A DNA stretch of 64,000 nucleotides. It comes from a virus. Location of the stretch: positions 1-64,000 of IMG/VR virus record IMGVR_UViG_3300030109_003595. One strand, written 5' to 3'. The notes beneath the pieces were generated by a model that was not told the DNA's origin, ran no database searches, and saw only the letters and a list, made by a program, of their open reading frames with translations. The position numbers and the translations under genes were made by a program. Positions within the stretch are counted from its first letter, which is position 1. Every line of letters starts with the position of its first letter. This document shows positions 11,796-37,600 of the stretch, in pieces.

Positions 11796-12405
11796 CATTC
11801 TATCATTAGATATTGAGACTATAAATTACTCATGGGATATAGGTGGATGGGATAATAAGAATCTATTCAAGATGAGTGTGATTGCTACTTGGGATGGTAC
11901 TAATGCTACTTTATTTTGTAATGAAGATATACAGTTAGATGGTGTAAAAGTATTACCATTACATGCAACAGATATAGGTAATCATATTTCAGAACATGTA
12001 GAAAAAGGTGGTAAGATTTTAGGACATAACATCATTGGTTTCGATTTACCTGTAATCAAAGAATCGTTAGACTGCTGGGCTGCTGGTGATATTATGTCTA
12101 AGAGTGCTGACACAATTATAGACACTAAAAATCTAGTTTCAAAAGCATCTAAAATACTATCAGATAATATAGGTACATCATTAGATATACTTACTAAATG
12201 TACTTTGAAAGAAGGTAAGATAATGCAGAGTATAGATGCACCAAAGCAGTGGGCTTTGGGTAATTACAATGAGGTAGCAGAGTACTGCTTGAAAGATGCA
12301 CAACTCACATACGAGTTGTACAAGTACGGTGCTGAGTATGGTATAGTAAAATCACTTTCCTTGGATACAGGAAAAGAGATAGAGATAGAGGTGAATTGGA
12401 CATGA
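11788..12405 (+). CDS. DnaQ/PolB-type 3'-5' exonuclease, stand-alone
   Basis: The ATG at 11788 is preceded by AAGGAGGG seven bases upstream, which decides it over the GTG at 11779. The RNase H-like exonuclease motifs are complete: LDIET (D8, E10), HNIIGFDLP (D86) and YCLKD (Y166, D170), resembling the exonuclease domain of family B polymerases. At 205 aa it is a single domain with no polymerase. Its base composition is visibly richer in A and T than both neighbours (roughly 11800-12250, with many tta, ata and aaa codons), suggesting recent acquisition. It may add proofreading, DNA degradation or RNA processing. PolB already carries its own exonuclease, so a separate role is likely. Confidence 0.8.
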   Translation: MSDILSLDIETINYSWDIGGWDNKNLFKMSVIATWDGTNATLFCNEDIQLDGVKVLPLHATDIGNHISEHVEKGGKILGHNIIGFDLPVIKESLDCWAAGDIMSKSADTIIDTKNLVSKASKILSDNIGTSLDILTKCTLKEGKIMQSIDAPKQWALGNYNEVAEYCLKDAQLTYELYKYGAEYGIVKSLSLDTGKEIEIEVNWT

Positions 12406-13901
12406 CCGATAATGACAAGACAAACAATGCACAAGTGATGAATATACGGGCTGCTAAGGCAATCGTAGAGACTGTACGCACTACACTAGGACCAATGGGT
12501 ATGGACAAGATGATGGTAGATGGTGCTGGAAACGTGATAGTCACCAACGATGGTGCTACTATCCTACGTGAGTTAGACGTAGCACATCCCGGTGGTAAGA
12601 TGATGATAGAGATATCAAAGACACAGGAGACCATCTGCTACGACGGTACTACCAGTACTGTGGTGCTAGCAGGTCAACTACTGTCGAACAGCGAGATGTT
12701 GTTTGAGAAGGGTCTACACCCCAATGTGATATGCAGAGGATATCGTGAAGCATCTCAGATGGCAATAGACTATCTGAACAGTGAAGTGTCAATGAACACA
12801 GGTAATGAGGTTCTACACGACATAGCCAAGACCGCAATCACCGGTAAGACCGTAGAGGCTGCTACTGATATCGTGAGCACCCTCTGTGTGGATGCAGTCA
12901 TGGCTGCTGGTGATGTGGACAAGGTAAGGGTCGTCAGCCTACCCGGTGGTAGTATCGAGGAATCCTACTTGTTCAACGGAGTGATTGTGAGTAAGGACTT
13001 CGTGCTAGACTATGACTTGGATGAAGAGACCAACATCCTTCTGCTCAACACAGGGCTTGAGGAGGAGAAGAGCAAGGAGAATGTACAGGTTCAACTGAAT
13101 GCAGCAGACTACTCGCAGTTCCAGAAGTCAGGTAGAGATAACCTGCTTGAGCGTGCACAGCACATCGTGATGAGAATGGAAGGCAAGGGTGTAGTATTTG
13201 TCAGGGATGGTGTACATGACCACGTGTGTGCCTATCTGAGAAAGAACGGCATAGGTGTGGTGAGAAGAGTGCCTGAGAGTGTGATGAAGGCACTGAGGGG
13301 ATGCTTGGGCATCAGCGTAGCACAGACTCCAGAGGAACTAGAAGCCTCAGCCTTCGTTAAGATATCGAGACAGAAGCACAATGACGTTCAGTACATATTC
13401 GTGGAGTCTATTGTTGACAGTGACCAATCCACTCTAGTTCTAAGAGGGGCTACCCAATCCACTCTGGATGAGGTGGAGAGAGGCTTCGATGACGCACTGG
13501 GTGTGGTCAGCCTCGTCAAGGAAGACGGTAAGGTGGTTGCTGGTGGTGGCTCATCATTCGTGGCTATGGCCTCTTATCTGAGGAATCATGGCGCTAGTGT
13601 GGGTGGAAGGCCTCAGATGGCTATAGAGGCCTTTGCTGACGCTCTAGAGGTTATCCCTGCTACCATAGCGGAGAACGCAGGACATGACCCACTGGATGTA
13701 GTGCTGGCGATGAGACACGAGATACAGAACGGCAACCTGTATCATGGGCCTGATGTCACTGATGGTGGTATCACCAACATGAGAGACGCTGGTATATTTG
13801 AGCCTACCAAACTAATCAAGCAGGCTGTGCTTAGTGCGACAGAAGTCACCACTGCCCTACTAAGGATAGACGATATCGTTGGTAGGAGACCTGTGGAATA
13901 A
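12402..13901 (+). CDS. Group II chaperonin (thermosome/CCT-like) subunit
   Basis: Conserved thermosome blocks are plain: MNIRAAKAIVETVRTTLGP, LGPMGMDKMMVD (29-40), TNDGATIL (48-55), DGTT (81-84), VLRGATQSTLDEVERG, VVAGGGSS, and a C-terminal AVLSATEVTTALLRIDD. Residue 80 is Tyr where the family normally has Gly in GDGTT, while catalytic-type Asp81 is kept. At 499 aa it is shorter than cellular subunits (about 540-550), mainly at both tails. Group II chaperonins form double rings with a built-in lid that fold proteins using ATP. Here it may fold very large virion proteins or supply a virus-specific ring. The ATG at 12402 makes an ATGA overlap with the exonuclease; the upstream TTG is less likely. 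Confidence 0.95.
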   Translation: MTDNDKTNNAQVMNIRAAKAIVETVRTTLGPMGMDKMMVDGAGNVIVTNDGATILRELDVAHPGGKMMIEISKTQETICYDGTTSTVVLAGQLLSNSEMLFEKGLHPNVICRGYREASQMAIDYLNSEVSMNTGNEVLHDIAKTAITGKTVEAATDIVSTLCVDAVMAAGDVDKVRVVSLPGGSIEESYLFNGVIVSKDFVLDYDLDEETNILLLNTGLEEEKSKENVQVQLNAADYSQFQKSGRDNLLERAQHIVMRMEGKGVVFVRDGVHDHVCAYLRKNGIGVVRRVPESVMKALRGCLGISVAQTPEELEASAFVKISRQKHNDVQYIFVESIVDSDQSTLVLRGATQSTLDEVERGFDDALGVVSLVKEDGKVVAGGGSSFVAMASYLRNHGASVGGRPQMAIEAFADALEVIPATIAENAGHDPLDVVLAMRHEIQNGNLYHGPDVTDGGITNMRDAGIFEPTKLIKQAVLSATEVTTALLRIDDIVGRRPVE

Positions 13902-14077
13902 TGGGAAGACTACTAGACAAACTAAACGTCACTTGCCGCGTTTGTGGTCACAAGCACATACCAAGAAGACTCAATGCTCGTTATCAAGATGGCGAAAAGA
14001 GGAGAGTTAACCTCTGGCAATGTAAGCAATGTGGTCACTTCTGGCAGGATTCAGTATACAAGAAGGCGAAACAATAA
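13901..14077 (+). CDS. Zinc-ribbon mini-protein, 58 aa
   Basis: ATG at 13901 overlaps the chaperonin stop TAA. Two knuckles, CRVC (12-15) and CKQC (41-44), each followed by Gly-His, enclose a basic stretch (RRLNARYQ...EKRR). This is a typical small nucleic-acid-binding ribbon. No partner can be named. Confidence 0.65.
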   Translation: MGRLLDKLNVTCRVCGHKHIPRRLNARYQDGEKRRVNLWQCKQCGHFWQDSVYKKAKQ

Positions 14078-14106
14078 ATTACCTTCGGTGTAGAATCTAC
14101 ACTACT

Positions 14107-14397
14107 ATGTTGTGGAGATGGTTTGCTCGTAAACTCATGAGTATAATGGGTAACCTCTACGTGTGGTTAGATAAGCGTGTGAAATACACTGATGAAGAAG
14201 TCAGTCAAGTCCTAGGTTTGGACATTGATGAAGACTTGAGGACCAGTTCAAGGTACGAATTATGTCGTATAGTCGAAGAGGAGTTCAAAGTACCCAAAGA
14301 CTCCTTTTGGACTCTACACAGCACCCAGAAGATACGCTTCGCTACACAGCAGATTCGTGAGATGAAGAAGCCTAGTAAGATGGATATGGGATACTGA
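14107..14397 (+). CDS. Unknown basic protein, 96 aa
   Basis: The frame is open from 14029, but the first ATG after the upstream gene's stop is at 14107. A later ATG at 14137 is an alternative. The N-terminus (MLWRWFARKLM) is hydrophobic and basic, possibly an amphipathic membrane-surface helix. The rest is mixed charged with acidic turns. The stop overlaps the next mini-gene by ATGA. No family is recognised. Confidence 0.45.
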   Translation: MLWRWFARKLMSIMGNLYVWLDKRVKYTDEEVSQVLGLDIDEDLRTSSRYELCRIVEEEFKVPKDSFWTLHSTQKIRFATQQIREMKKPSKMDMGY

Positions 14398-14539: not shown

Positions 14540-14673
14540 TTGTTGACCAACGTCTGATAGACGCTGTGTCCAATGACATCCAAGTGGAAATACCGTTAGT
14601 CTTTCCCTTGCTTCTACTGGCCACAACAGGGTTGCTGATATATTTTGTATGGTCTAGTAGGGATAGTGAATGA
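14536..14673 (+). CDS. Single-pass membrane mini-protein, 45 aa
   Basis: ATG at 14536 and TGA at 14671-14673 both sit in ATGA overlaps. Residues 19-39 form one hydrophobic segment (IPLVFPLLLLATTGLLIYFV), flanked by an acidic N-terminal arm and a short charged tail (SSRDSE). It is a probable membrane peptide directly before the HMG-CoA lyase homologue. Its function is unknown, and a lysis or membrane-remodelling peptide is one possibility. Confidence 0.5.
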   Translation: MIVDQRLIDAVSNDIQVEIPLVFPLLLLATTGLLIYFVWSSRDSE

Positions 14674-15521
14674 GTGCCATATCTCTGTATGAAGTGAGTC
14701 CTAGAGATGGTTTGCAGGGTTTACCAAGAGCCATCCCTCTGAGGAAAAAAGTAAAACTAATCAAGAAACTAAAGAAAGCAGGTATAGAGGGTATAGAGGT
14801 AGGCAGTCTAGTACACCCCTCTATACTACCAATGAGAGAAAGTGGTAAACTGTACAAGAAAACCGGAGGAGACTTGCTGGTGGTAAATGAAAAAGGGTTC
14901 GATAGAGCGATAGAACTAGGTGCGAAAAGAGTGAACGTGGTGATAAGCCCTCATGACAATTTCAGCCAATTAAATCAGAAAAATACATATGAGAATATAA
15001 TGAGTATATATCAAAATAAATGCAAGGATATACCGATAAATAGGTTATACATTAGTTGTGCATTTAGTACAGGTATATCTCAAAAAGCCGTTCTAGACTG
15101 CGTGAAGTGGGGTAAAGACATAGCAAAGTACATTGTTCTATGTGATACAGATAGTAATGCTACTGCTGAGAGTATAGCGTCATTATGTAGTGGAGCAAAA
15201 GCAATCACACCCAATCTCAGCATACATCTACACGTTGATGAGGATAGTACAGAATACATCAAAGCAGCCTATGACTCAGGTATCAGACAGTTCGACTGCT
15301 CTGTAGGTGGACTTGGTGGTTGTTTCTCCTTGGATGAAGCACAAGGTAATTTGAGAACAGAGTCATTGGTGTCGTGGGCATTATCCAATAACATACCAAT
15401 AGAAGAGAACATACATGTGGGTAGATTGATATCCACAAGTGAATATGCATACAACCTAGCACACTCATACAGTCAGACTAAACTAGAGAAGATAATGGCA
15501 AGACTAGGAGTCTTAATCTAA
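14670..15521 (+). CDS. HMG-CoA lyase homologue (DRE-TIM metallolyase)
   Basis: HMG-CoA lyase splits 3-hydroxy-3-methylglutaryl-CoA into acetoacetate and acetyl-CoA. The family pattern is complete: SPRDGLQ with R12 and D13, IEVGS with E43, the metal ligands H186 and H188 in SIHLHVD, the flexible active-site loop GGLGGC with C218, and GN at 226-227 (N227). The human enzyme uses R41, D42, E72, H233, H235, C266 and N275, and the spacing here (D to E 30, Cys to Asn 9) is the same. The length of 283 aa is near the usual 300. It overlaps the membrane mini-gene by ATGA and is the last left-arm gene. Another DRE-TIM enzyme such as isopropylmalate or homocitrate synthase is less likely because of the GGLGGC loop. 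Confidence 0.85.
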   Translation: MSAISLYEVSPRDGLQGLPRAIPLRKKVKLIKKLKKAGIEGIEVGSLVHPSILPMRESGKLYKKTGGDLLVVNEKGFDRAIELGAKRVNVVISPHDNFSQLNQKNTYENIMSIYQNKCKDIPINRLYISCAFSTGISQKAVLDCVKWGKDIAKYIVLCDTDSNATAESIASLCSGAKAITPNLSIHLHVDEDSTEYIKAAYDSGIRQFDCSVGGLGGCFSLDEAQGNLRTESLVSWALSNNIPIEENIHVGRLISTSEYAYNLAHSYSQTKLEKIMARLGVLI

Positions 15522-15859
15522 GTGTGAATTATACCATTAGGATGGCTACTCATAAAACTAGGTTGTGCAGGGAAGAAGTCCGGCAAGTCTGTTATAACGA
15601 CATTTCCCTCTGCTGCTAGTACAGTAGCAGGTAAGTCTAACAAAGCCTGTCTGTATTCTCCTAACTCTGTTTTCTGTGAGTCTGTGAGTGCATTATAGAG
15701 TAAGGGTTTAGATTGATAGTAATCCACATACCTCTCCATTACCGAATCCCTAGAAGCCCTTAACTTATCATAAGAGTGTTCCACACTCATAATTACATCG
15801 CTTGCTCTACATGTCGTTCCATCTACTGCGCTCCATACATTCTCTCCCATAATTATCAT
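15518..15859 (-). CDS. Tail-fibre assembly-like protein, 113 aa
   Basis: The gene directly follows the 2711 aa fibre with an ATGA overlap (start 15859; a second ATG at 15850 is possible). The segment LTDSQKTELGEYRQALLDLP resembles the YRQ.LRDLP signature of phage fibre-assembly chaperones and fibre-tip proteins, which help trimeric fibres fold or sit at their tips. Its stop (15518-15520) overlaps the HMG-CoA lyase stop from the opposite strand. The position right after a fibre gene supports the role. The match is a short motif only. Confidence 0.55.
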   Translation of the reverse strand: MIIMGENVWSAVDGTTCRASDVIMSVEHSYDKLRASRDSVMERYVDYYQSKPLLYNALTDSQKTELGEYRQALLDLPATVLAAEGNVVITDLPDFFPAQPSFMSSHPNGIIHT

Positions 15860-18800
15860 CTCCTCTCAAAATACGCTGTAAACCTAGCAGGTCCAATTTG
15901 CGTAGCGTTAGAATAACTGGTCGGTGACTCTACTCTTATGTTGAAAGTGTCTCCCTCATCAAAATCAATATCGTAGTTAGTCTTAGACATGATGAATGCA
16001 TTACCACCACTACCACTAGCGTTACCTGTCATCGGGTCATTTAGTCCCGATTGATTCTTGAATATATCTATACTCATATTGGTGCTATTTGTCCTAGAGT
16101 TTTTGTTACCAAAGTGAATGTATAGTGCCTTAAGGGTACAATCGCATCCTAGAGGCATACCGAAATCCACACCGCTTGATGACTTGGTAGTGTTCTGTGC
16201 CCCGTTACCATATGAGAATGAGAATCCATTTGAGTTACCTGCTGTAGCAGGGCCAAGATAGTCATCTGACTCCTCACCGAAAATCATAAACGAATCTGTG
16301 GAAGAACCACCACCACTTGCATTTTCCCAAGCAACACCACTTCCTGTTGAAGTTAGAACTTGACCATCAGAACCTTGACCGCCATTTACTTTAATATTTT
16401 CAGCATCTACTAATCCAAAGTATGCGTTTTTATATTTGAGAGATGAAGTTCCTAAGTCTATATCATTATCACTAACTGGATTTACTGCATTGTTTATGAT
16501 TTTAATTTGATTAGCACCTGCTACTCTAAATCTTACTTCGTTATCAGTATCAAATTGAATCTCATTATCTGCATCTCTACCAACTTTTAATGACGCATTC
16601 AATACAGAAGTAATACCTGTTTGTGCAGCAGTTACCGCTACATCATTTGCATTTGCAGTTATACCAGTTCCACCAATAACATTGACTGTTACTGCTCCAC
16701 TGCTTCCGCCACCTGTTAATCCAGTTCCTGCGGTGACTCCTGTAATATCGCCTACGGGTATGTCAGTCCAAGACAATGTTCCACTACCGTTTGTGACAAG
16801 CACTTGATTTGCACTACCATCTGCGTTTGGCGTAGTTCCGGGGAATGTGAGAACCTCTCTCCTTGCTCCCCAATTGCCGCTATTTTCATCGGCCTCCCCT
16901 GTCCTAAAGTAAAGAGGCTCAGTATCAACGCTAGTACTACCTGCGTCTGCGGCAGAGAATAACTGCCATGCCCTGTAATTGTCAGACCATCCCTTCATTG
17001 TGAGAATAGAATCCCAAGCATTAGTAGCGTTTGTAACATCGTCTGAGAATGTGAAGGTTGCAGATTTGTCTGCAAACTCTGTCGGTGTCATTTCGGAACT
17101 TGTTGTTGCTCCCTCGTTCCTTGCATCCCTGATTCTTATCTCCGATACATTGTCGCCTATCCATGTCTTTACTCTACCCATCGTGGTCTTACGAGTAGTA
17201 CCACCTGCTCCGTCATCTATAATGAGTAAATCTGCATCTTGGATACTTGCACCTATATCTGTAAGGCCATCAACATCCAAATCAAGAGTCACGCCACCGC
17301 TTGAACCACCACCCGATAGCCCCGTTCCGGCAGTTACGCCAGTAATGTCTCCAGAACCACCACCACTCACCGAAGCAAAGGAGAGTGTACCACTGCCATC
17401 TGTCTGTAACACTTGGTTAGCATCACCGTCTGATGTGGGGAATGTGTATTCTCCATTGAATGTAATCGCACCGCCACTTGCTACACCTATCCTTACAGTG
17501 TCATTCGATACTATGTTGAAGTTGGAGTTGGTGAATGTCCCTACATTACCTGCATTGTTACCTACCTTGAGACCACCCTGTATCCCTGATGAGCCATCCT
17601 CTGCCATGATTCGTGCATCTTCATCCACTACGTGCAAAGTGTAAGAAGGACTTGTAGTGCCTATTCCGACTTTACCATCATGGGTTATCCTCATCCTCTC
17701 AGCAGGTGCGGCATCGGAAGTCGCACTCCTAGTTCCGAAGGTCATGGCGGCTTGATAACTACCTGTTCCGTTTTCCTCCGCCCCTATTCTCACCGAGGGG
17801 TTGGCATCGCTACTGAAATGGCTCAGACCGATGTGAACGCTTCCCTGTGTGCTACCACTCGTTCCCCCTGTGGTTGAGAATAGCGCAACGGTATCGTCAT
17901 TGGAAGAGCCTACGACATGAAGCAATTGGTCAGGACTCGTAGTGCCTATTCCGACATTGCCCTCCGAATTGATACGCATTCTCTCAAGGGAAGCAGTGTC
18001 ATCGGCTTGGTCATTAGGTGCAGTGAAGAATGTCAGATGCCCTCCCTTGTCATCAACCGAATGGTCTTGAGAAGCATAAGCAGCGATACCTGCTGATGCC
18101 TCTGTTGCTCTTGAAGGCGCATTACCATCCTTACCATCAAAACCAATCGCACCGAGTAAATCACCGGAAGCGACAGTTGTAGTGTTTCTGATGATTGTCA
18201 GACCGTCGTTGAAATCCCCACCATTATGGTATAGTGTTAGAGTGGTCAATGGGTGCGAACCACCATTGTTCACGGCCAACTTACCATCTATCATTGTCAT
18301 ACCACAAGTGTTCGATGCATCTTGGGCTTTGCTTGATGATGAGTACCTGAACTCCATGTATCCGCCTTTGGCAGTCGCACTGTGGTCTTGCCTCGCTTTA
18401 GCAACAATAGCAGCAGATGCCTCAAACACACTGCTTGGTACATTGCCATCAGTCGAATCGAAACCAATGCCTCCGAGTATGTCGTTGTTGCCAGTTGTTG
18501 AGTCGGCTCTGACGACCATTATTCCGTTGTCACCATCAACACCAGTATGGTCAACCTGTAGTTTATTCAACGGACTCGTAGTGCCTATTCCGACATTACC
18601 CGAAGAATCAATCCTCATTCTTTCATTACTACCCGCAGTAAAGAACCTAACATTCTGATAAGATGCAGAATTGTTTCCACCATCATCAGCATACAAATCT
18701 AGGTTAAAGTCCGACTTGATTGAGCCGACAGAACCGCTAGTGTCAAACTTGAGATAGCCTGAACCGCTTGTCAGATGAAGCGGTGAACCGGGGCTTGAAG

Positions 18801-21800
18801 TGCCTATTCCGACATTACCATCAGCAGTAATAACCATCTTCTCAGTGAGGCTTGCACCCGAAGCATCTCCTTGAGATGTAAAGAACTCAATCGCACCATC
18901 GAAGTGTCCGGGGTCATTCGGGTCGCTGGTGATACCACGAATCTCAGCGACAGTGGTGACTTCTTGGCTGTTCTCGTTCATGGCAAATTGTAGTTTGCCT
19001 AAGACAAACTCGGTTGTTCCACCGAAGAAGTTGTTGGCATCGAACTGTGCCATCTGTATAATACCGGGTTGGCCCGATGTCCTACCGGAGACTCTTATCT
19101 GTGGGTCTGCCGCCCCTGTTCCTGTGTTAGCAGATGATGGTGCGGCAGTACCCGCATAACCCGTTCCATCCGTATCGTTGAACTCGCCTATCTTAATTCC
19201 GCCCCTTACGGCTAGTGAGTCAGTTGGACTCGAAGTGCCTATTCCCACATTACCTGCTGAATCAATCCTCATTCGTTCTGTGCCTGTCGTCGTGGCATCG
19301 TTAGCCGCAGACCAAAATCTGATGCTGGTAGCCGCATTGACAGCGGTTGACCCACCACCGATATTCACGATGTTATCTGTCCCATCCGAATCACCGACAA
19401 CCAAACCAATTGGTTCTTCGGCGTTGTGATAATGCGGAGTGGCGAACCTACCATACTTTCTTGTATCATTTGTCAAAGTAGCGGCATTCACATCTGCCCC
19501 CATTTGTATAGCGATGCCCGAACCTGTATTCACATCGAGTAATGCTTCGGGCGCAGTAGTGCCTATTCCAACATTACCTGAGAAGTAATTCTTTGTCTCA
19601 CCAGTAACATATAATCCCCAAGGATTAGTTACGTTACCTGCACCTTGCCAATCAAGATACATGAGATAACCAGTTCCCGTTGTAACTGAATCATCATTAT
19701 GGTCTATTGTGAATCTACCACCGAATAAATCTCCTGTTGATATTGAATTGCTATTACTACCTTCAATATCTACTTGGTTATATGAACCGTAAACATTTCC
19801 TACATCGCTTTCCCTGTCATTATTTACTTCAATGTAGTTATATTCAGCATAGGAATTGGTGTTAACTCCAGTCTTTGCTATTCTTATATCGCTATAATGA
19901 CCAACCAGAGAAGTTACAGTAGCACTAGCATGAGTCATGTGAGAGTTCACAGAAGTTTGAACCCCTCTTAATGAATGAATGGTTTGTGCAGTTGAAGGTT
20001 CATACTCTTGATATGATTGAACAGCATATTGTCTGTTAGCATCACCGCTTTGTCTTTGGTCAATGTAAATACCTGCCATCTCTATTTCAGCGTTAGCAGC
20101 ATCACCAGCAGTTGATGAGTTATCTTGGTCAATATAAATTGCATAATGCTCATTATCCTGACCGGGAGTATTAGTTCCTGATGAATCATAATCAATGAAT
20201 ATACCAGCAGAAGCCGTTGCATCTGTAGCAGAATCTACGTTTCTATCAATGTGTATTCTGCCTGTTAAGTCATATTCTCCATAATGCACTAAGTTTGCTA
20301 CTGTATCACTCTTACCAATTTCAACAGGTTGTCCTGTATTGTATTGTAGATGTATTGAACCGCTATCTGTTTCAATTTCATTAGTGCTTCTTAGTTTAAT
20401 ATTACCCATTGTTATTGCAGTAGCGGTTATAGTGCCATCAACATCTAATTCTGAACCGGGACTCGTAGTGCCTATTCCAACTCGGTTTGCTGATGAATCA
20501 ACAACTAAAGTATCTGTATCCCAAATTAAATCCCCTGTCCCACCAGTAAGGGCGGTTAAAGTTCCAAGTGAAGTAATCGCTGATTGCGCAGCACCTGTGA
20601 CAGTCGCCGCAGTACCGCTTACGTTTCCTGTTACATCTCCTGTAAGCCCACCTACGAATGTGCCTGTCACAGTACCTACCTTGAAGTCCTCAAAGGCAGA
20701 GCCGTGCTTCAGTTCCATTCTGTTGTCTGTCGTGTTGTATTGGAATGTGATGTCGTCTCCTGACCCTCCCTCCAGTGTCAGACCAGTACCATCAACAACC
20801 TCAGCGGTTGCGTTTCCACTACCGAGAACTATGTTCTTGTCTTCAACAGTCATGGTTGCTGTGTTGAGTGTGGTGGTCGTGCCACTCACGATTAGTTTGT
20901 TGTGGATGGTGACATCACCTGTCGAACCGCTAACTGTGAGAGCATCTGAGTACGAGTTGTGAGTGGTGTTGGATGACCCTCCTGCTGGAGCATATTGGAG
21001 TTTCAGGTCTCCTCCACTTGCAGTTCCAGTACCAGCACCACCACCTAACTTCAGGACACTGCCCGCTGTGTCATTGCTACTGGTGGGTGCTGGGACAAGG
21101 TAGTTGGTATTCTGACCGAAGTACATGTCTCCGCCGAATCCCTCCAACCAAGTGTCACTACCGCTCTTGAGAAGCAATTGCTTAGTTCCAGTAGCATCAC
21201 GTAAATCACCAACTCCTGCACCGATAACCACGTTATCGCTACCACTGGTGACGTTCTGTCCAGCGTTTCGCCCAATGAATATATTGTCATCACCACCTTG
21301 TAGAGAATCTCCCGCATCATTACCTATGGTGACATTGAAGTCGCCAGTCGTGATTGACATTCCTGCATCTTCACCTATCGCAACGTTCCCACGACCAGTG
21401 GTTATGTCCTGCCCAGCATAGTAGCCGATTGCTACGTTCTTGTATCCACTGGTCACCTCCATCATCGGTTGGTATCCTATACCCACATTGTGGTTACCAG
21501 TGTTGTTTCCAGTGGTCGATGACCCCTCTACTGCTGTGTATCCTATACCGATGTTGTAATCTCCATCCATGTATAATCCTGATTGCACACCCAAGAATAT
21601 GCCCCCAGTCATGTCGATGGAGGTGGCGCTGCCCGCCAATGCTCCAATTGCTATGTTATTACTGCCAGTGGTCAAAGCGTCGAGCGCTCTGTCTCCTATC
21701 GCTACGTTAGTGCTACCAGTCGTGATTGACTCCATGGCTTGGTATCCGACCGCTATGTTGTCCTGACCTGTGGTGTATTCTCTTGCTGCTTGATATCCTA

Positions 21801-23991
21801 TGCCTATATTTCTAACACCAGTGTTATTAGAGGCAGTGGTAGAACCATGAACTGCTTCAAAGCCCAAAGCGATATTGAAACCACTACCCATGTATAGACC
21901 TGCTTCACGACCAATTGCGATATTGTCAGACAAGTCTGTGTCAGTAGAACCCATGCTATTGAATCCTAGTGCAACATTGTAATCACCACCAGTTATAGTG
22001 TCCATTGCAGTAGCACCGATAGCAACGTTACCCATGGTTGACTGTCCAGCGTATAGAGAACGATATCCGATTGCTACATTCTTGTCGCCACCCGTTATCG
22101 CTGTTGCAGCCTCATATCCAAGTGCGACGTTGTGGTCAGCACCAGTATGTACGAAGAGTGTCTTGTATCCTATACCGATATTATCCTGACCAGTATTGTC
22201 GTTCGGTGCAGTAGAGCCTCTTGTTGCGAACTCACCAATCCCTATGTTATTGCCGTTCGCTCCCATGTAGTATCCAGCACTCTTACCAATTGCTACGTTA
22301 CTACTGCTCGTATTCTTCGCACCTCTCATGGTATTAGGGCCAATGGAGACGTTATCCGAGCCAGTTGTGTGTTGATGGAGGGCATGTTGCCCAATAGCGA
22401 CGTTATCATCTCCGGTAGTGAGCGTATCTAGTGCATTATATCCGACAGCAACGTTGCTACTACCCTCTGTTAGTGCGGTTAGCGTCAATTGCCCCAATGC
22501 TACGTTATCTGACCCCGTAGTGACTGCGTTCATCGTCGGTGAGCCAATCGCAATGTTATTCGTACCAGTGTTATCGGCTTTGGTGGAAGAACCAGTCATG
22601 GAGTTATCACCAATGGCTATATTCTCATTGCCCTTCATGCGAAGTCCAGCATGCTGACCTATGAATACTGAAAGGTCTATACCTGAATCCGTATCACCAC
22701 CTGCTTCCACACCTATGAGCACATTCTTACTACCCGTAGTGATATCATATCCCGCTTGGTCTCCGATTGCTATATTGTGGTCTGCGCTTGTTATGATTCG
22801 CAATGCGTCTTTACCTATTGCCACGTTGTCTGTCGCACTGGTTAGTGAACCAGTGACAGGAGTACCACCGAAGTTGTTGATGAAGATTGAGTCATTAGAT
22901 ATGAGTACATCAGTGAGTCCGTTAAGAGCAGAAGCACCCCCTGAGGCTGTGGTGTCTATAGAGTCCTGCAAGTCGTCGAGAGTCATGTACTTCCATGAAG
23001 AGGCAGACTCGTCCCAAAGCAGAATCTTGTCATCAGTGGCATCCGTTGATTCAGTCAACTGAGTCAGATTTATCGGGTCATCCAAACCCACTGTGTCACC
23101 ACTGAGGGTTATCGGTGAGGACACTGCTAGGTTGGTATTAGCGCTTATGTCGACGCTTGCTAGGTAGTTGTAACTCTCTATCTTCTCCTTGATTGCGCCG
23201 GATGACATTATGTGGTCGTCAGCATCCACGAACTCAGTGCCTATGTCTATGTCATCGAAGGTATGTCCGCCGATTGTCATCGAACCCGCTTTGACATCCC
23301 CTGAAGTCTCGAACTTACCCGCTGACGACGCTGTTGGTGATGCCGTGCCGAGAGCGAGTGAGTAGATGTACGAACCTGCTGTGCCGCTAGCCTCGAACTG
23401 ACCCTCAACGTAAGCATCGTTTCCGTTCAGGGCAATCTTGGTGGGACTGGTTGCCCCTACCCTCAAGTCGTCTGTGAAGTATCCGCTACCGACTACGTGA
23501 AGGTCATAGGATGGTGTGCTAGTGCCTATTCCGAGTCTTTGAGTGCTACCATCGAACCTGACGTATTCAGTAGTACCTACTTTGATGACAACATCATCAT
23601 CTGGATTTAGTTGTATATTCGCGTCTGCCGTTATCAGAAGATTCTCAGGATTGCTAGCATCAGCACCAATTCTAGTGTCCGTGGAATCGAAGTTAATGTA
23701 TTTCTGCTGCGGTATCGTCATGTCATTGGTGAGAGTGACCTCACCATCGTTGCCCACTGTGAACTTAGTAGCACCATCTTCGGTGATTACGAAATTGCTA
23801 TTAGTATCATTGGTGTTGGTATCGAGATTGATGTTGACAGAGCCGAGTGAGTTGATTGCCAGTATCGAACTAGATGTACCGCTGATGTTACCGATAGTGC
23901 CTAGAGTGAGTACACCGTCTATTATCGAGGAGTCCTTGTTAGGTCCTTCTACGTCTAGTCCTTTCTTTACCCTGAATGTTTTCTCTGCCAT
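15856..23991 (-). CDS. Giant trimeric tail fibre, 2711 aa, with YadA-like head repeats
   Basis: The N-terminus (MAEKTFRVKKGLDVEG) is nearly the same as that of the next fibre upstream, suggesting a shared virion-attachment module. About 31 YadA-like units (pattern NVAIGxxA, roughly 14-22 residues each) occupy the region encoded at 21205-22830 and should form a left-handed beta-roll trimer. A TTTTLNTATMTVEDKNIVLG motif follows. The next 1000 residues carry repeated VGIGTTSP units typical of phage fibres, then two DITGVTAGTGL blocks and a C-terminal beta-rich tip. It probably binds the host cell surface. I see no C-terminal S74 self-cleaving chaperone; the small gene at 15518 may replace it. 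The start ATG follows GGTGAGGAA. Confidence 0.88.
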   Translation of the reverse strand: MAEKTFRVKKGLDVEGPNKDSSIIDGVLTLGTIGNISGTSSSILAINSLGSVNINLDTNTNDTNSNFVITEDGATKFTVGNDGEVTLTNDMTIPQQKYINFDSTDTRIGADASNPENLLITADANIQLNPDDDVVIKVGTTEYVRFDGSTQRLGIGTSTPSYDLHVVGSGYFTDDLRVGATSPTKIALNGNDAYVEGQFEASGTAGSYIYSLALGTASPTASSAGKFETSGDVKAGSMTIGGHTFDDIDIGTEFVDADDHIMSSGAIKEKIESYNYLASVDISANTNLAVSSPITLSGDTVGLDDPINLTQLTESTDATDDKILLWDESASSWKYMTLDDLQDSIDTTASGGASALNGLTDVLISNDSIFINNFGGTPVTGSLTSATDNVAIGKDALRIITSADHNIAIGDQAGYDITTGSKNVLIGVEAGGDTDSGIDLSVFIGQHAGLRMKGNENIAIGDNSMTGSSTKADNTGTNNIAIGSPTMNAVTTGSDNVALGQLTLTALTEGSSNVAVGYNALDTLTTGDDNVAIGQHALHQHTTGSDNVSIGPNTMRGAKNTSSSNVAIGKSAGYYMGANGNNIGIGEFATRGSTAPNDNTGQDNIGIGYKTLFVHTGADHNVALGYEAATAITGGDKNVAIGYRSLYAGQSTMGNVAIGATAMDTITGGDYNVALGFNSMGSTDTDLSDNIAIGREAGLYMGSGFNIALGFEAVHGSTTASNNTGVRNIGIGYQAAREYTTGQDNIAVGYQAMESITTGSTNVAIGDRALDALTTGSNNIAIGALAGSATSIDMTGGIFLGVQSGLYMDGDYNIGIGYTAVEGSSTTGNNTGNHNVGIGYQPMMEVTSGYKNVAIGYYAGQDITTGRGNVAIGEDAGMSITTGDFNVTIGNDAGDSLQGGDDNIFIGRNAGQNVTSGSDNVVIGAGVGDLRDATGTKQLLLKSGSDTWLEGFGGDMYFGQNTNYLVPAPTSSNDTAGSVLKLGGGAGTGTASGGDLKLQYAPAGGSSNTTHNSYSDALTVSGSTGDVTIHNKLIVSGTTTTLNTATMTVEDKNIVLGSGNATAEVVDGTGLTLEGGSGDDITFQYNTTDNRMELKHGSAFEDFKVGTVTGTFVGGLTGDVTGNVSGTAATVTGAAQSAITSLGTLTALTGGTGDLIWDTDTLVVDSSANRVGIGTTSPGSELDVDGTITATAITMGNIKLRSTNEIETDSGSIHLQYNTGQPVEIGKSDTVANLVHYGEYDLTGRIHIDRNVDSATDATASAGIFIDYDSSGTNTPGQDNEHYAIYIDQDNSSTAGDAANAEIEMAGIYIDQRQSGDANRQYAVQSYQEYEPSTAQTIHSLRGVQTSVNSHMTHASATVTSLVGHYSDIRIAKTGVNTNSYAEYNYIEVNNDRESDVGNVYGSYNQVDIEGSNSNSISTGDLFGGRFTIDHNDDSVTTGTGYLMYLDWQGAGNVTNPWGLYVTGETKNYFSGNVGIGTTAPEALLDVNTGSGIAIQMGADVNAATLTNDTRKYGRFATPHYHNAEEPIGLVVGDSDGTDNIVNIGGGSTAVNAATSIRFWSAANDATTTGTERMRIDSAGNVGIGTSSPTDSLAVRGGIKIGEFNDTDGTGYAGTAAPSSANTGTGAADPQIRVSGRTSGQPGIIQMAQFDANNFFGGTTEFVLGKLQFAMNENSQEVTTVAEIRGITSDPNDPGHFDGAIEFFTSQGDASGASLTEKMVITADGNVGIGTSSPGSPLHLTSGSGYLKFDTSGSVGSIKSDFNLDLYADDGGNNSASYQNVRFFTAGSNERMRIDSSGNVGIGTTSPLNKLQVDHTGVDGDNGIMVVRADSTTGNNDILGGIGFDSTDGNVPSSVFEASAAIVAKARQDHSATAKGGYMEFRYSSSSKAQDASNTCGMTMIDGKLAVNNGGSHPLTTLTLYHNGGDFNDGLTIIRNTTTVASGDLLGAIGFDGKDGNAPSRATEASAGIAAYASQDHSVDDKGGHLTFFTAPNDQADDTASLERMRINSEGNVGIGTTSPDQLLHVVGSSNDDTVALFSTTGGTSGSTQGSVHIGLSHFSSDANPSVRIGAEENGTGSYQAAMTFGTRSATSDAAPAERMRITHDGKVGIGTTSPSYTLHVVDEDARIMAEDGSSGIQGGLKVGNNAGNVGTFTNSNFNIVSNDTVRIGVASGGAITFNGEYTFPTSDGDANQVLQTDGSGTLSFASVSGGGSGDITGVTAGTGLSGGGSSGGVTLDLDVDGLTDIGASIQDADLLIIDDGAGGTTRKTTMGRVKTWIGDNVSEIRIRDARNEGATTSSEMTPTEFADKSATFTFSDDVTNATNAWDSILTMKGWSDNYRAWQLFSAADAGSTSVDTEPLYFRTGEADENSGNWGARREVLTFPGTTPNADGSANQVLVTNGSGTLSWTDIPVGDITGVTAGTGLTGGGSSGAVTVNVIGGTGITANANDVAVTAAQTGITSVLNASLKVGRDADNEIQFDTDNEVRFRVAGANQIKIINNAVNPVSDNDIDLGTSSLKYKNAYFGLVDAENIKVNGGQGSDGQVLTSTGSGVAWENASGGGSSTDSFMIFGEESDDYLGPATAGNSNGFSFSYGNGAQNTTKSSSGVDFGMPLGCDCTLKALYIHFGNKNSRTNSTNMSIDIFKNQSGLNDPMTGNASGSGGNAFIMSKTNYDIDFDEGDTFNIRVESPTSYSNATQIGPARFTAYFERR
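17654..23535 (-). repeat. Eight dispersed copies of a 17-bp fibre-gene repeat
   Basis: Near-identical copies of GTAGTGCCTATTCCGAC (+ strand reading) occur at 17654, 17939, 18578, 18797, 19232, 19556, 20465 and 23519. They encode the recurring VGIGTTSP-type segment. The surrounding DNA differs far more than these blocks do, so they are local islands of nucleotide identity inside one gene. Confidence 0.8.
21205..22830 (-). repeat. Tandem YadA-like beta-roll repeats (about 31 units)
   Basis: Counting the protein gives 29 clear units of the N-[VI]-x-[IVL]-G type and two degenerate ones without the leading Asn. Several units carry the same 5-residue insertion (GST..NNTG type), spaced about 4-7 units apart, giving a higher-order period. 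The DNA repeats are diverged, so this is an old protein repeat, not a recent expansion. Confidence 0.85.
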
Positions 23992-30237: not shown

Positions 30238-31670
30238 TCTCCACCTCTTACGCTTACTTCGCTAAACTTCGACATTCCAATCACCTTAGTAGTCCCTGCT
30301 TTCCCTATAGTAGCCCTCCCAGCAGCCCTGCCGATTGCAAACTTGGAATTGAGGCTTTCTACAACTCTCACTGTTATTATGGGAATAGTCATTATTTCAA
30401 ACGAGGAGAACAGGGACAGATTCTTCTCAGTCTGCTGGCTTATCGTATCTGGGTTGTCGCCTGATGAAGAGGCCATCATTCCTTCGCTGATACCTTGTAG
30501 CACACCCTCCACACCAGTCTGCACGGATATGAAGTTCATGTCCGTCAATCTGGATGATAGGATGTGTCTGGATTCTGTGATTAGTTTCTTCTCTCCCTTG
30601 TAGGACACCACCTTTCCGGGTCTCAAGTCCCAAGCGTCTGGGTGACCACTGCTTCTCAATGAGCCTTGCTCTAGGGAGTTGGCCTTGAGAATCTGCCTCG
30701 CCACTCTCTTAGCGGCAGCGTTGGTCTTCACCGTGGCATCGAAGATTGGTGTGACTGTCTCCTGCACGTCTGTGTCGAACTTGCCCTGTTGTCTCTCAGC
30801 ATCGTCTACAGTGACCGATGCACTCTCGTTCTTCGCTAGGGGTATGCCTTGGATTGATATTCTGTTCTCATTGTGGGAGGATGGGTTGGTTTCCTCATTG
30901 CCCTGCCTCATGCCCGCATCTAGGAATCTGGTGGATGTGGTGAATGTGAATGGGGTGTACATGAGATTGGCGAATCTGTCGAAGTAGATGATATTACCAT
31001 CATGACGTGATGAGAACTTCAGCGCTGATATGAGAGGCACGCCGTAGAAATCCTCTGCTAGGAACTTGTTAGTGTGCTTTCTCCTAGCGCTGTTGGTGTT
31101 CGCTGCGTGTCTCAACGAGCCTATCTGCACAGATGTGAGAGTGGATGCCACGTCAGTCCCCAACCTCATTGCCAAGTCGCTAGTTCTTAAGCCAACATCA
31201 ATCGGGTCTCCTAGGTGAACTGTCCGGCCTTGGAAGCCTATGTTCTTGAGACTCCTTCCCTTCATATTCTTCATGTTGATTTTGACTCCCTCCGTAGATG
31301 ACTCTGCTGTGGATAGAGTGAGTCTGTCTGATGTATCCTCACCACTGTACATCAATATGGGGAGATTCGACGTGGATGATATCACACCGCTCTCATAGAA
31401 TGGTGCTGCTGTGCTGGTGTGACCGGGTACACTCACATGCGATAGTTGCACTGAGGACTCACCTTCGACCAATTCGTACCTCTTCTCGCTGAATACGTTG
31501 TATGTTGCGTTGTTCCTGTTCTCTATGGTTATCTTGTGCTTGTGGTCAGACTGAGATTCTAAGAGAGCGTGATGCACTGCGTTGTCCACGAACACAGGTT
31601 TTCTCACATGCTTCATCGCCTCGTTGACGGTATCAGTGAACTTGCCTGTGCTTGCTAGTAGTTTGGTCAT
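30234..31670 (-). CDS. Baseplate hub-like protein, 478 aa
   Basis: The section near residues 330-385 (AKRVARQILKANSLEQGSL, then a DAWDLRPGKVVSYKG block and LITESRHILSS) resembles the final domains of phage tail hubs of the gpD/gp27 group, where a beta barrel follows helices. The rest is beta-rich. The protein lies between the 5567 aa giant (ATGA overlap at 31667) and the baseplate/fibre genes, where a hub is expected. Hubs form the central ring through which DNA and tip proteins pass. The C-terminal 70 residues have hydrophobic Ile/Val-rich parts. The family match is weak by eye. Confidence 0.55.
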   Translation of the reverse strand: MTKLLASTGKFTDTVNEAMKHVRKPVFVDNAVHHALLESQSDHKHKITIENRNNATYNVFSEKRYELVEGESSVQLSHVSVPGHTSTAAPFYESGVISSTSNLPILMYSGEDTSDRLTLSTAESSTEGVKINMKNMKGRSLKNIGFQGRTVHLGDPIDVGLRTSDLAMRLGTDVASTLTSVQIGSLRHAANTNSARRKHTNKFLAEDFYGVPLISALKFSSRHDGNIIYFDRFANLMYTPFTFTTSTRFLDAGMRQGNEETNPSSHNENRISIQGIPLAKNESASVTVDDAERQQGKFDTDVQETVTPIFDATVKTNAAAKRVARQILKANSLEQGSLRSSGHPDAWDLRPGKVVSYKGEKKLITESRHILSSRLTDMNFISVQTGVEGVLQGISEGMMASSSGDNPDTISQQTEKNLSLFSSFEIMTIPIITVRVVESLNSKFAIGRAAGRATIGKAGTTKVIGMSKFSEVSVRGGE

Positions 31671-34600
31671 GCTGCATCACCACTGTGGTTGCTTACGTTG
31701 AAGGACACATCACCTTTGTGTCCCTTGGGGTGCAGAGACTGGCTGAATCTGGGCTTGACGCTGTAGTCCAACCTTCTCACTATCTGATTGGATTCTTCTA
31801 TCTGTCTCCTTCTAGATGCGTCTGCTCTGTAATGCTGTAGGGTGTTCTCGCTTATTATCATCCTAGTCACTGGGCTTGTTATTGTGGTCTTGTCGAAACC
31901 TGTGGTCTCTGTTCCCAGTATCTTAGGCCCTTTGGATGTGGGTGTGGTGGCACTGCTATTGCTCATGAACACCACAGGTACGTATGGTCCGTTGGTGTCT
32001 GGTGCTGTGCTCCTTGGGAAGTTGTCTGAAGCCACTCTAGGTGTGGGTGTTTCGTATGTGAACAGACCGTACTTACCACCACCGGATGCTCTGAAGAAGT
32101 TAGAAGCAGGCTGTGGTGTGTTGCCTGCTACGGACGGTACTGGTCTGAACATCTCCACATGCTGCTTGTCCAACACACGGACGGGTCGTAGCAACCACTT
32201 CACGCTCTGGTCCTTCTGGTTGTTCTTCACAGTGTTCCTGCTGAAGTCGGTGTTCTGATACGGGTTGGTTGTCTTAGCACCACCTGATACACCATCCAGT
32301 CCCCACCCTGTGTCATCGAAGAAAGAGCCGTAACTCTTTGTCTCCAGCACGTAACTACCGCCTAGTGGATTTACGTTGCTAGTGTGACTGAACCTGAGCA
32401 CGCTGTTCATGTGTCCGTTGAATGCAGCGGTCGTCAGGTCCAAGTCACCAAGAGTCTGAGTGTTCGCCACCAGAGCACCGTGCAGCACTGTCCTCTGTCC
32501 TACACCTCTGTCTGTGTGTAGGCTATGTGCTTCGGTGTTGATTGCAATGTGGTCCTTCTCAAGACCCTCCATGTTCTCAGCGTCAATGCCTATCCTAGGG
32601 GTGCTTCTGCTGATTGCGTCTTTGTGTGGTGATGTGCCTACTATCTGCTCTACCCTGTCGCTGACCACTGCATCTGGCTTGAGTAGGCCGTCTTCCTCTA
32701 TCTCCAGTCTAGCGCTGATTCCCCTTGGAATCTCATCGGCTTGCAGTACGTCGTTACGGGGGCGTAACAAGCCCGTTACGGCTGGTGGTTCTGCTGTGTT
32801 GTGACTCAGCACGACACCAGTGGAGTGCACAGGCTCTGACAACTCCGTGAGTATGTCCTCGTTGAATTGGCTGGGGTATCTCACTCCCCTGCCGTTGCCC
32901 ATGTCCCCTACTCTCATGGAGTGCGTAGGGGCGAACACATCGACCAACTCTGTGCTGCTACCACTCAGAGATTGAGTACCACCCAATCTAGGTGCGTCAC
33001 CAGTTCTCTCTCCTGAGGAGTTTATCACACCAAGGACATCGAATATGGGTTTGCCGTTGTTGAATATCCTAGCATGGGGCGACCTGTTGTTGGTTCTGTC
33101 ATACTCGTATGCATCTCCGCAGTCCCATGCTGGTCTGATACCGAATCCACGCACTGGAGCACGCCTTACGTCCTCTCCACGCTCATTGCCCCACCAATCT
33201 ACCAGATAGTACTGAGCGGCCTCTGTGAGGCTGTATACACCCTTCCCTAGTATATCGCCCCACCAGTCCCTGCCTTGGTTGTTATTGGCTACCAATGTTC
33301 TCAGTGGTGCTCCGAACGGTCTGGTCATCCTCCTGCCGTCGCTGTACCTCACTTGGTATTCGGGTCTGTCTGCTGCGAGCATACCAGCGAAGTTGGTCTG
33401 CCTCTCCATGATACCGACGTATGTCGTTGACAGAGGAACGTTAGACTGCGACGTATCTCCACCGATGTACGTCCATGTGGAGGCAGGCATATGCACCAAT
33501 GGTCCTGCAACGTAGTCAGTGGTGTACTGAGTCTCTGATGTGTTGTCATCCTCCAGTTTGCCCCTGCCGGGCAGTATGCCGTATGTCGGCTTGTTGTACA
33601 CCTGTCTCAGGGATATTCTCCACCCGTATGAGTAGCGGTTGGCATCATGCGAACTACTCATCGTATCGAACGTGATGCCACTGCTGGCCATGGCATAACT
33701 TGAGTTGGCCGTATCCTCGTCCTTCCAGAAGTAGAAGTCGTTTGCAGCGTATTTACGGGGTATTGACCATGATACGCTCGCTTCGGTATACAGGTCGAGA
33801 CGACTCACCAGAGGTCCACCACGGCTACCACACGGCCAGAACTTGCTGTACATCACCTTCTGGCTATCCAGTGTAGTACCACCCTGCGCCTCGTATCCAG
33901 AGAGTGCCTCTATTGCCGCTCCTGTGGCTGAAACGCCTGTTTTCGTGTCTGGGTTAGCAGACTTAATCCTCAGTGATAGAGGACCTAAACTCATCGCATA
34001 CACCGAATCATGGTAGTGTATGCTCTCGAAATGCTCAGGTAGGCTGTTGTATGGCTTCTTGTCCACCGCCCTATCACTGGTTGGGTTGTTGAAAGTACGT
34101 GAACTATCCGAGTAGAATGTATATGGTCTTCCCAAATTACTATTCCACATACATAGATATGCATCGGGTATATGTAAATTAGTTGTATCTCTAGTACCTT
34201 TTTCTAATTGTGAAAGTACTTTTGTAAATATACTACTATTAGTATCTGTAAATACATTCTTGGAACTGTATATGTCATATGGTTGTGATAATCTAATGAC
34301 TGTACCTTCTGTTAGATTGTCCCAGAATGGCCCAGAAACGACGTTTGACTGTAGTTTATCTGGTTTGTTAATTGCGTTTAACTGCAATCCTGAGCGTCTT
34401 GTGTATGCTAATGTCTGTCTAATACCATTAGAATCTGTATATTCCAGCACTTCTGCATATTGTGGAGTCTCTGGGAATCTACTTGCGTCATCTACAGTGA
34501 TTGTTCTATACCCATTTGCTGTACTTTGAATACTTTTCACTATACATTTTGCATTTAGAGATGTATTTTGTAATATATGTGAATATATATTTGGATATAT

Positions 34601-37600
34601 TGAAGGATATCCTGCAATTGTTAATTGTACTCCTATACTTCCGAAGGTACTTCTCTTCATATGGTAGTAGTTATCTGGGCGATGAAGCGCTATATGTTTG
34701 AAGTTGTTAGAGGAACTGTCGTCTGGAGCGACCTTGTGGATGAACGACCACCAAGGTGTGCTGACTGTGTATCCGGGCGTGGCATTCCTGAACTGGCCCG
34801 GTGTGTATGGTAGTGCTCTACGTGTGAAAACGGGTGACTCCGTGCCCTCTACGCCGAATTGATTGTACAATAGCAGAGGTGGGATGTTAGTGAATTGGCT
34901 GCCGTGGTCTGGGTTGATGTCTATCATTGCTTCATTGATGAATATCTCACAGCCTCTGACATCAGCCTGCGTAGCCTGTGCTAGAATCAGGGAAACCGTG
35001 CCTAGAGTGTTGTTTGCTGCTTTCCTGCCTATCACTGTATGTACCTGCTGGCTAGTCAGGGATTGGGTGGAAGCACCTACGTCTGTGTGGAAGCCCACCA
35101 ACTGCGTGGAGAAAGTGTTGGGTTGTATCACAATCTGGTATGCACCTACCTCAGCGGGGTCTGGAAAGTTCTTCCCTAGAGTGTAGTAGTATGCGGATTC
35201 CAGCACTATGGTGTGTCCACCTGCTTTGTTCACTGCACCGGCGTGTGTTCCTGTAGATGCGAGAATACCGTAACCATCATATTTGATACCGGTCTCGAAC
35301 ATAAGCGTAAACGCACCTCCATGGATATCGCTGGGCAGCGATGGAGCGGCGTTTACACCACTGAATGATAACTCAGGGTCATGCACGTTGAACTGGTCCG
35401 TCACGGTTGATGCCAAGTCACCCATCACGCTAGTGGCAGTCACACTATCAGCCAGTATGTTCTTGTCAGCAAAGCCTCGCAGTGATGCGTTTTCTGCTTT
35501 GTGTCTCGTGAATAGGCTTTGGTAAACAGGATGTGCCCAGTGACCGGGGAGCATCGGCATAGTCGGTGTGACGAAGTGATGACCCATGCGTGGTAGCGGC
35601 ATTGGTGTCAGTACCTGCTTGTTGTAGATGTTGTATGCTAGGGTGTTGGCATTGACAGTACCGTATGTTCCTGAGAGGTATTCCGTCTTCGCCATGTCCG
35701 GTGAGTTGCCGCTTACTTCTGCGTGGTCACGTAGCCTCCTTGATGCGAAGAAGCGGTTGCTACCGGCTGGAATGTAGTATGACGGTGAGATGTTGATTGT
35801 AGTTGAGGCTGGTGGGTTCGCTGCTAGGAAGACGGTGAAATCCACATCTCCTACCACTCCTGTGAACGTGCTTCCGCTGATTCCTGTGTAAGAAACTACC
35901 ACCGAGTCAGTGGTTGTAGCAAGGCGTAGGAAGCGTCTGTTGTCGCTTACCTCCTTAGTTCCGAATCCAGCAGAGAACACATCGGTGTTAGTAGAGGGCA
36001 TCAGTACTGAAGCATTGGCAGTCAACGTAGTACCGCTGAAACTGCTGACTGTGAGTGAGCGGGACTCTATTCCATTTGCGTGTGTGTATACTGTTGGATA
36101 CCTCTCAGTGCTGCTGTGTCCCATCTTAGTCACATGGAAGTACAGTGTCCTGTCATGCTGCTCATAACTGGTTTGCAGAGGTGCGCTGTTGGTCGCTTCC
36201 TTCCAACCAGCATTGGTACTGTCCTTGGTCAGCACGTCGATGTGCTCCCAGTTGTGGTCCTCGTATGTAGGGCCTGTGCGTGGACTGGACACCGAGTTGT
36301 CGAATAGATTTCCTATGTAGTTCTCGTTGAGGTCTGGGTGTATCATGCCTCCAGAACCCATAGTCTCGTTCTGGTAAGCCTGTAGCCTGTCGAACCCTGA
36401 CCTTACCACGATGTTGCCGGGTATGGAGTTGGGGTCAGGCAACTGTATCTTGAGGTTGGGTGCTACGTCGCTGTTGGCCAGAGCAGGGGACATCCCCTTC
36501 GTTTGCCTGTCCGTGACCTTCCTGAAGCCACGTATGATTGTACCCAGAGGACTGCCGCCCTCAAGCACGTGCTCCTGTCCTGAGTCGTCAGTGACGGTCA
36601 TCTCACCGAACTGCATCTCCTCGTTGGGTATCTCCAAGACGTTCTGTATGTTGAGTGGGAACTTGGATGCGAGTTGGGGGTGATTCAACTCCTGTGCCTG
36701 TAGCACTGGTAGCATGGCGCTGTTGGTGGTCTCGAACGTGAATCTCACGTTGCCGAATATCTTCTCACCCATGGTGTAGGCGTTGTTGCCACTCACCCTG
36801 TTTACGAAGGGAACAGCGCCCAGACCACGTGCATTGATTGCTGGTAGTGATAGATTACCACCATCCATCCTCTTCCACACTATGTGCTCTATCGAGAAGT
36901 TCTTCGCTGCTGACCTCTTGTACAGGTCGTATGCATTCACATCACCGACCCAGAAGTCGTCGTGTGATGGTGTACCACTGTCATCGTATAACTGTGTGAA
37001 GTCCTCACCACTACTACCACCAATACCATTACCGTATAGGTCGGCTGCGACGTTTCTCTCAACCCCTGTCTCCTCAAGGAAGAATGAGCCTACTGAGTGG
37101 TCTAGGTCGAATATCAGGTCTCCTGTCTTGTGCAGGCTTGGTATGGCGTTCTCAAGAGTGGAGTTGTTCGCAGTACCGTGCAGGAAGTACTCCGCATCGA
37201 AGGTAGTGTCCAGTGTGTGGTTCGTTGTGTAGTTGCTGACGGTCTTCACAGTAGGTGTGGTGTGTACCATCGCTTCTACGTTAGGACCTGCGTTCGCTGG
37301 TGCTATGAATCGGTCCTGACCGTGGAATCGCTCATCCCATCTCGTAGTGCCAGCATAGTGAATGGGGTTGGCTACACTGTTAGCGGCAGCACCTTTGACT
37401 TGCAACCAGTCACCTAGACCTGTGATGCCATCCCTGTCGTACTTAGCCACAAGAGCACTCTCACACTCGTAACTCACCACTATGAATGCCCTGCCAAACA
37501 CCCCCTGTGGGTGTGTCATGAAGTCAGGTAGAGTGGTGTCGATGTATGTGGGAGGCTTGGTGTGTATGGTGTGAGGAGCATCAGAGGTGTCGTGTGCAAT

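Follow-up and report, generated by a model that had tools for sequence, protein, structure and literature searches.

A virus-encoded homologue of HMG-CoA lyase with retained catalytic residues and an altered metal-site motif

The IMG/VR virus contig IMGVR_UViG_3300030109_003595 is 73,023 bases long and carries, within its first 64,000 bases (the stretch of DNA that was analyzed here, hereafter called the window), a gene for a protein that, as judged from the agreement of family scores, a profile search of the PDB, the predicted fold and phylogenetic trees, belongs with HMG-CoA lyases and apart from related synthases. On balance, we lean towards considering this protein an active, metal-dependent HMG-CoA lyase from a subfamily that has been found so far only in viruses of this kind. 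It would act alone on the HMG-CoA of the host, draining a lipid precursor and returning acetyl-CoA. We infer the activity, HMG-CoA as its substrate, an archaeal (Poseidoniales) host and the precursor drain. The presence of the gene in viruses of this kind was already known, since hydroxymethylglutaryl-CoA lyase (HMGCL) is listed among the auxiliary metabolic genes of magroviruses, under leucine degradation, in one clause of the Results of Xu et al. (2023, PMC10160649). This list, together with an HMGL-like protein of Klosneuvirus KNV1 in BFVD, runs counter to the statement in the initial annotation that no viral gene of this type is commonly described. No further treatment of the magrovirus HMG-CoA lyase was found in the literature searched, although two articles on these viruses (PMC11706807 and PMC5434244) may say more. 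New here are the viral clade, the frequency of the gene in large contigs, the catalytic set kept without the HxH-[D/N] motif, and the presence of the RxYxS motif.

That the gene is encoded by a virus, as originally proposed, is borne out by the 73 kb virus record, which has Pfam matches to PolB (130.5 bits), ERCC4 nuclease (59.5 bits), portal (41.3 bits), terminase (46 bits) and prohead protease (41.4 bits). DNA ligase reaches only 20.2 bits, below the Pfam cut-off, and no match to DNA glycosylase was seen among the Pfam-scanned ORFs of the record. With this sub-cut-off ligase, the gene content appears to fit most of the magrovirus list given by Xu et al. (2023, PMC10160649), namely PolB, DNA ligase, ERCC4 nuclease, DNA glycosylase and structural genes. 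The virus is marine and presumably infects archaea, with Poseidoniales as the putative host. No named magrovirus is present among the protein-search matches in the phage collection, which may leave out near records. A further record, L164 (CAKLQH020000001.1; 328 kb), is filed as 'Acinetobacter phage' and contains, next to genes for a CoA transferase and a transporter, a gene that resembles the lyase and is annotated leuA; we suspect the record to be a piece of bacterial chromosome.

The only Pfam family matched by the window protein is HMGL-like (PF00682; 67.3 bits for a cut-off of 29, E 1.8e-18, profile positions 2-257 of 260). The NCBIfam model of HMG-CoA lyase, NF004283, follows the same direction with 121.4 bits (E 4e-35), a score that, like that of Pfam, lies well beyond chance but does not reach its curated cut-off of 246, and the next NCBIfam model, which is the best of the synthases, scores 33.7 bits. 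NF004283 matches all 16 members of the viral set A2, and the other member for which a score is shown, L111, obtains 211.4 bits, also below the cut-off. Searching the PDB with phmmer at E<=0.001 retrieved six sequences, all of HMG-CoA lyases, the best being 6nds, which was crystallised with 3-methylmalate and is devoid of RxYxS. A profile of seven close viral relatives likewise retrieved HMG-CoA lyases from the PDB at values between 1.8e-26 and 1.8e-17, versus 0.032 for the best synthase. The AlphaFold2 model built from 31 viral sequences (pLDDT 88.4, pTM 0.87) matches eight listed HMG-CoA lyase entries with Z scores of 31.0-32.6, the next entry being a synthase at 27.2. These results, and the DRE-TIM tree presented below, uphold the grouping with HMG-CoA lyases of the initial annotation, and none of them places the protein in a synthase clade, the outcome which that annotation had named as contrary to its claim. 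With human HMGCL and the Bacillus, Pseudomonas and Brucella enzymes in the PDB, the window protein shares its predicted fold, the critical catalytic and metal residues, the Cys loop and RxYxS, but its identity to HMG-CoA lyases over the structural alignment is only 26-29%.

The critical residues of HMG-CoA lyase are given in PMC6941031 as Arg41, Glu72, Tyr167 and Cys266, with Asp42, His233, His235 and Asn275 as metal ligands; all have their counterpart in the window, in the same order R12, E43, Y127, C218, D13, H186, H188 and N227 (table 1). Seven of these residues (R12, D13, E43, H186, H188, C218 and N227) had been pointed out before, and each was found at the place then given. The accompanying claim that their spacing equals that of the human enzyme, compared here by means of the human residue numbers that were quoted with it, holds for R-D (1), D-E (30) and C-N (9) but not for the distance from E to the first His (143 versus 161) or from the second His to Cys (30 versus 31). 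Equally, the claim that all catalytic positions are kept is correct for the seven named residues but does not extend to the wider metal-site motif, in which no Asp or Asn follows HxH. Across 86 unique viral segments, which were obtained by removing identical segments and those covering <=200 profile positions, and in which differently cut loci may repeat a gene, the equivalents of Arg41, Asp42, Glu72, Tyr167, Asp204, His233, His235, Cys266 and Asn275 are invariant, except that the Arg, Asp or Glu position falls in a gap in one or two segments. Beyond the seven residues named before, Y127 and D159 are thus kept as well, the latter aligning with Asp204 of the human enzyme. The Gly preceding Asn275 is changed to Ala in 55 of the 86 segments.

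Table 1. Location of the lyase gene, its active-site codons and its neighbours in the window
Feature	Position	Strand	Remarks
HMG-CoA lyase homologue, CDS	14670..15521	+	ATG start, 283 aa (283 codons + stop)
R12-D13 codons (human Arg41, catalytic; Asp42, metal ligand)	14703..14708	+	84/86 unique viral segments; other two gapped
E43 codon (human Glu72)	14796..14798	+	85/86 viral segments; one gapped
Y127 codon (human Tyr167), inside RxYxS	15048..15050	+	86/86 viral segments
D159 codon (human Asp204 by alignment)	15144..15146	+	86/86 viral segments
H186-L-H188-V189 codons (HxH metal ligands, then Val)	15225..15236	+	Cellular homologues sampled have Asp/Asn in place of Val
C218 codon (human Cys266)	15321..15323	+	86/86 viral segments
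N227 codon (human Asn275, metal ligand)	15348..15350	+	86/86 viral segments
Thermosome-like chaperonin, upstream of lyase, same direction	12396..13901	+	Pfam Cpn60_TCP1, 437.7 bits
122-aa ORF upstream of lyase	14029..14397	+	No Pfam match; homologues in 5/17 compared contexts (window, L004, L006, L109, L110)
Convergent 113-aa ORF, end of leftward structural arm	15518..15859	-	4-base overlap with lyase end; weak sub-cut-off match to tail-assembly chaperone

The residue following HxH separates the viral proteins from all others in our sample. Asp or Asn occupies this position in the 18 cellular homologues (taken from a plasmid and phage collection), in the five aligned PDB enzymes and in all 37 archaeal synthase-like segments, versus none of the 86 viral segments; the feature is drawn from this sample and is not a published criterion. 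His is the most frequent viral residue (74 segments), followed by Val (six), Lys (three), Gly (one) and Glu (one), while one segment gives the reading HHHA and also reads HLHH. The window protein has Val189 and so lies outside the Asp/Asn pattern. An earlier viral set of 46 representatives with <85% identity similarly contained no member with Asp or Asn after HxH. A register with viral H188 on the first cellular His, which was present in one alignment, was rejected because the HMMER alignments to the five PDB enzymes and the two-His sequence of the window fit H186-x-H188. The profile misplaced the His233 column in six of the 18 cellular rows; the motif listing gives HxH[D/N] in all 18.

The close relatives of the window protein comprise six contigs with 76-87% identical proteins and one with an identical protein, and a second viral scan using these relatives yielded nothing new. 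Comparison of the window gene with its six relatives gives dN/dS values of 0.08-0.16, and the thermosome gene among four of these viruses gives 0.02-0.04. The lyase gene is under purifying selection, yet it is evolving faster than the neighbouring thermosome. Decay of the gene in the window copy was rejected, for the frame is open and the dN/dS is low as reported above. When 16 viral members were used to scan IMG/VR, a relative was detected in 189 stretches, of which 80 were kept; identity among viral members drops to 34%.

The frequency of the gene was evaluated in two sets of records, both of which consist of the best matches to the window's own proteins and are no census of magroviruses. 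In the set selected with the thermosome (the best 80 of 153 loci), an HMGL-like gene is present in 20 of the 74 records searched and in 11 of the 13 that measure >=70 kb; this set left out six records of <10 kb (L003, L007, L008, L016, L021 and L045), the first three of which contain the lyase. The set selected by capsid and length (the best 80 of 506 loci, of which the 23 records of >=52 kb were searched) has the lyase in 11 of these 23 records and in six of nine at >=70 kb, one of these matches being partial and lying at the end of its contig, and another having an internal TAG. At G480:C1:48950-49798, the matched stretch of a viral homologue contains one TAG. Taking the union of both sets at >=70 kb, 15 of 19 records have a lyase homologue. 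The gene is common, not universal, since four large records have no lyase match, namely G005 (86.7 kb), G024 (95 kb), G470 (70 kb) and G473 (102 kb).

Phylogenetic trees were constructed with 45 viral representatives plus the window protein, 18 cellular homologues and 14 archaeal synthase-like sequences, the remaining synthase-like rows being omitted. The viral proteins form one clade with 100/100 support, as do the synthases, and in the free tree the viral clade is nested among cellular lyases. In AU tests, trees constrained to have the cellular lyases as one side, with the viral clade outside (p 0.557), or the viral proteins together with seven lyases of the RxYxS type as one side (p 0.617), were not rejected and both scored above the free tree, and consequently the tree search had not converged. 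The lineage of the window is set off by a branch of 1.5 changes per column; it has no Pro behind the catalytic Cys, in which it differs from HMG-CoA lyases, and about four residues that are present in other viral members are missing from it. Within the sampled sequences, the viral proteins appear to constitute a subfamily seen so far only in these viruses; the term 'virus-specific' is limited to this sample, because the tree is without a known Poseidoniales sequence.

Searches on the host side used several sets of genomes. A scan with short peptide patterns, which detects close relatives only, found no relative of the window lyase in genome contigs, and the same type of scan with the window thermosome found one Altiarchaeales contig. 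Among 297 genomes centred on the Altiarchaeales one, the window lyase matched in 31, at <=29.9 bits and mostly in ORFs of ~500 aa; the A2 profile matched in 17 of 394 genomes at E<=1e-10, with <=56.7 bits and ORFs of 395-549 aa. The matches in both sets probably correspond to synthases. The window thermosome was matched in 289 of the 297 genomes, the best listed match having 43% identity. For marine group II, a 16S probe pattern had no exact match in the 394 genomes, and its sole match with one mismatch was in the Altiarchaeales genome.

A hint on the substrate comes from the RxYxS motif, which reads RLYIS in the window and is present in all 86 viral segments. Seven of the 18 cellular homologues possess it, namely both of those adjoining an acyl-CoA carboxylase alpha subunit, the single one adjoining a degradative HMG-CoA reductase, and four others; it is also found in four of the five PDB alignments, 6nds being the exception. 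The motif is absent from the six cellular homologues adjoining a CoA transferase, one of which (from Tistrella) has RxY without Ser, and from L162, a cellular homologue adjoining a biotin-binding protein. This correlation from few cases hints that HMG-CoA is the favoured substrate.

An alternative that deserves attention, even if we do not think it likely, is that the same lyase chemistry is applied to another substrate, the protein being a 3-hydroxyacyl-CoA lyase, for example of the citramalyl-CoA type, within the wider HMG-CoA lyase family. The metal-site motif is altered in every viral member, the best phmmer match is the enzyme crystallised with 3-methylmalate, and six of the 18 fetched homologues adjoin a CoA transferase, a setting that would suggest other acyl-CoA substrates. 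What speaks for HMG-CoA instead is the distribution of RxYxS, ubiquitous in the viral segments versus absent from the CoA-transferase-linked homologues (0/6), even if L162 renders the motif imperfect. Several features count against our preferred interpretation of an HMG-CoA lyase: the viral HxH without Asp or Asn, the NF004283 scores below cut-off, the long branch of the window with its missing Pro and about four further residues, 6nds as best phmmer match, L162 without RxYxS, and the higher-scoring, unrejected tree in which the viral clade lies outside all sampled cellular lyases.

Archaea make HMG-CoA for isoprenoid lipids, so that the substrate would be at hand without leucine breakdown. 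Moreover, a Pfam scan of 28 ORFs (20 of the window, including the lyase, and eight in the rest of the record, with the largest structural ORFs left out) detected no other enzyme of CoA-ester, leucine or ketone metabolism. For these two reasons, the lyase most likely acts alone on an intermediate of the mevalonate pathway of the host. The host pathway would supply 3-hydroxy-3-methylglutaryl-CoA, which the viral lyase would cleave to acetyl-CoA and acetoacetate; this drain would starve the synthesis of isoprenoid membrane lipids in the host during infection, and carbon would be returned as acetyl-CoA. Alternatively, an active HMG-CoA lyase could serve the supply of carbon and energy, completing leucine breakdown in the host and feeding acetyl-CoA without any block of lipid synthesis. 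Xu et al. (2023, PMC10160649) assign the magrovirus gene to leucine degradation in the clause mentioned above, and the initial annotation also proposed this role; we regard it as improbable, given that the 28 scanned ORFs include no further gene of the leucine pathway.

With respect to genomic setting, the lyase is the last gene of the rightward arm, which contains the replication genes, and follows the thermosome and the 122-aa ORF at the junction with the leftward structural arm. In L115-L118 it is found instead within a run of same-strand ORFs of the opposite arm and has a 4-base overlap with the upstream ORF, to which L116 and L118 add one with the downstream ORF. Other viral groups show differing neighbours, few of which have recognised domains: Pfam and PHROG matches are restricted to an ORF of L109, which matches a phosphohydrolase PHROG and, below cut-off, an HD domain, and to weak matches for two others. 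The embedding of the gene in L115-L118, among ORFs that are putative tail genes by their position, could be taken to suggest that the protein is retained for a role in the virion or for another function that is not enzymatic. Such a role is very improbable, because the residues of catalysis and metal binding do not vary across the 86 segments despite identities as low as 34%, which is more than a purely structural role would demand. Finally, a synthase of the DRE-TIM superfamily (isopropylmalate or homocitrate) can practically be dismissed: these enzymes and citramalate synthases share with the window protein the superfamily, the barrel fold, the Arg-Asp-Gly motif and the HxH metal site, but they are devoid of the catalytic Cys loop (the Cys column is gapped in 37/37 archaeal synthase-like segments versus Cys in 86/86 viral ones), form their separate, fully supported clade, and give weak scores with NCBIfam and the PDB profile as well as a lower fold match.

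The structural arm of the window includes a single ORF of 5567 aa (31667-48370, minus strand) and another of 2711 aa (15856-23991, minus strand) that is rich in NIAIG-type repeats; L004 has in place of the latter an ORF of 2487 aa whose middle part differs. Many ORFs of different families near viral lyases (e.g., L107:7839-8771, L180:2652-3929 and L184:1802-2260) open with a short N-terminal sequence resembling M-x-[AP]-F-[DEQ]-x-A-W-x-[LV]-L-K. This pattern, which was drawn after examples had been seen, occurs within the first 45 residues of 86 out of 658 unique ORFs, versus 37 matches in later positions, which are about six times as numerous, and may act as a signal for packaging or processing.

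Klosneuvirus is a giant virus of eukaryotes, and its KNV1 protein (BFVD A0A1V0SKU2) resembles that of the window in having an HMG-CoA-lyase-like fold, with a TM of 0.81 and 26% identity. The HMGCL of magroviruses, as annotated in the passage of Xu et al. (2023, PMC10160649), appears to be the same kind of virus gene.

Marine group II archaea are among the most abundant microbes of the ocean surface, where their magroviruses are ubiquitous, according to PMC10160649. We would raise, as a tentative and on present evidence rather unlikely generalization, that in most magroviruses a dedicated HMG-CoA lyase, fast-diverging and altered in its metal-site loop, is a standard means of infection for stopping the isoprenoid lipid synthesis of the host at its precursor and returning the carbon as acetyl-CoA. 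If true, the viruses would be attacking lipid synthesis in archaea in a manner that was not found described in the literature searched. In this way, a one-line annotation becomes a hypothesis that can be assayed. The lyase, intact in most of the large contigs examined and bearing a shared change beside the metal site, points to a step of infection that would proceed via HMG-CoA, the entry to the membrane lipids of archaea.
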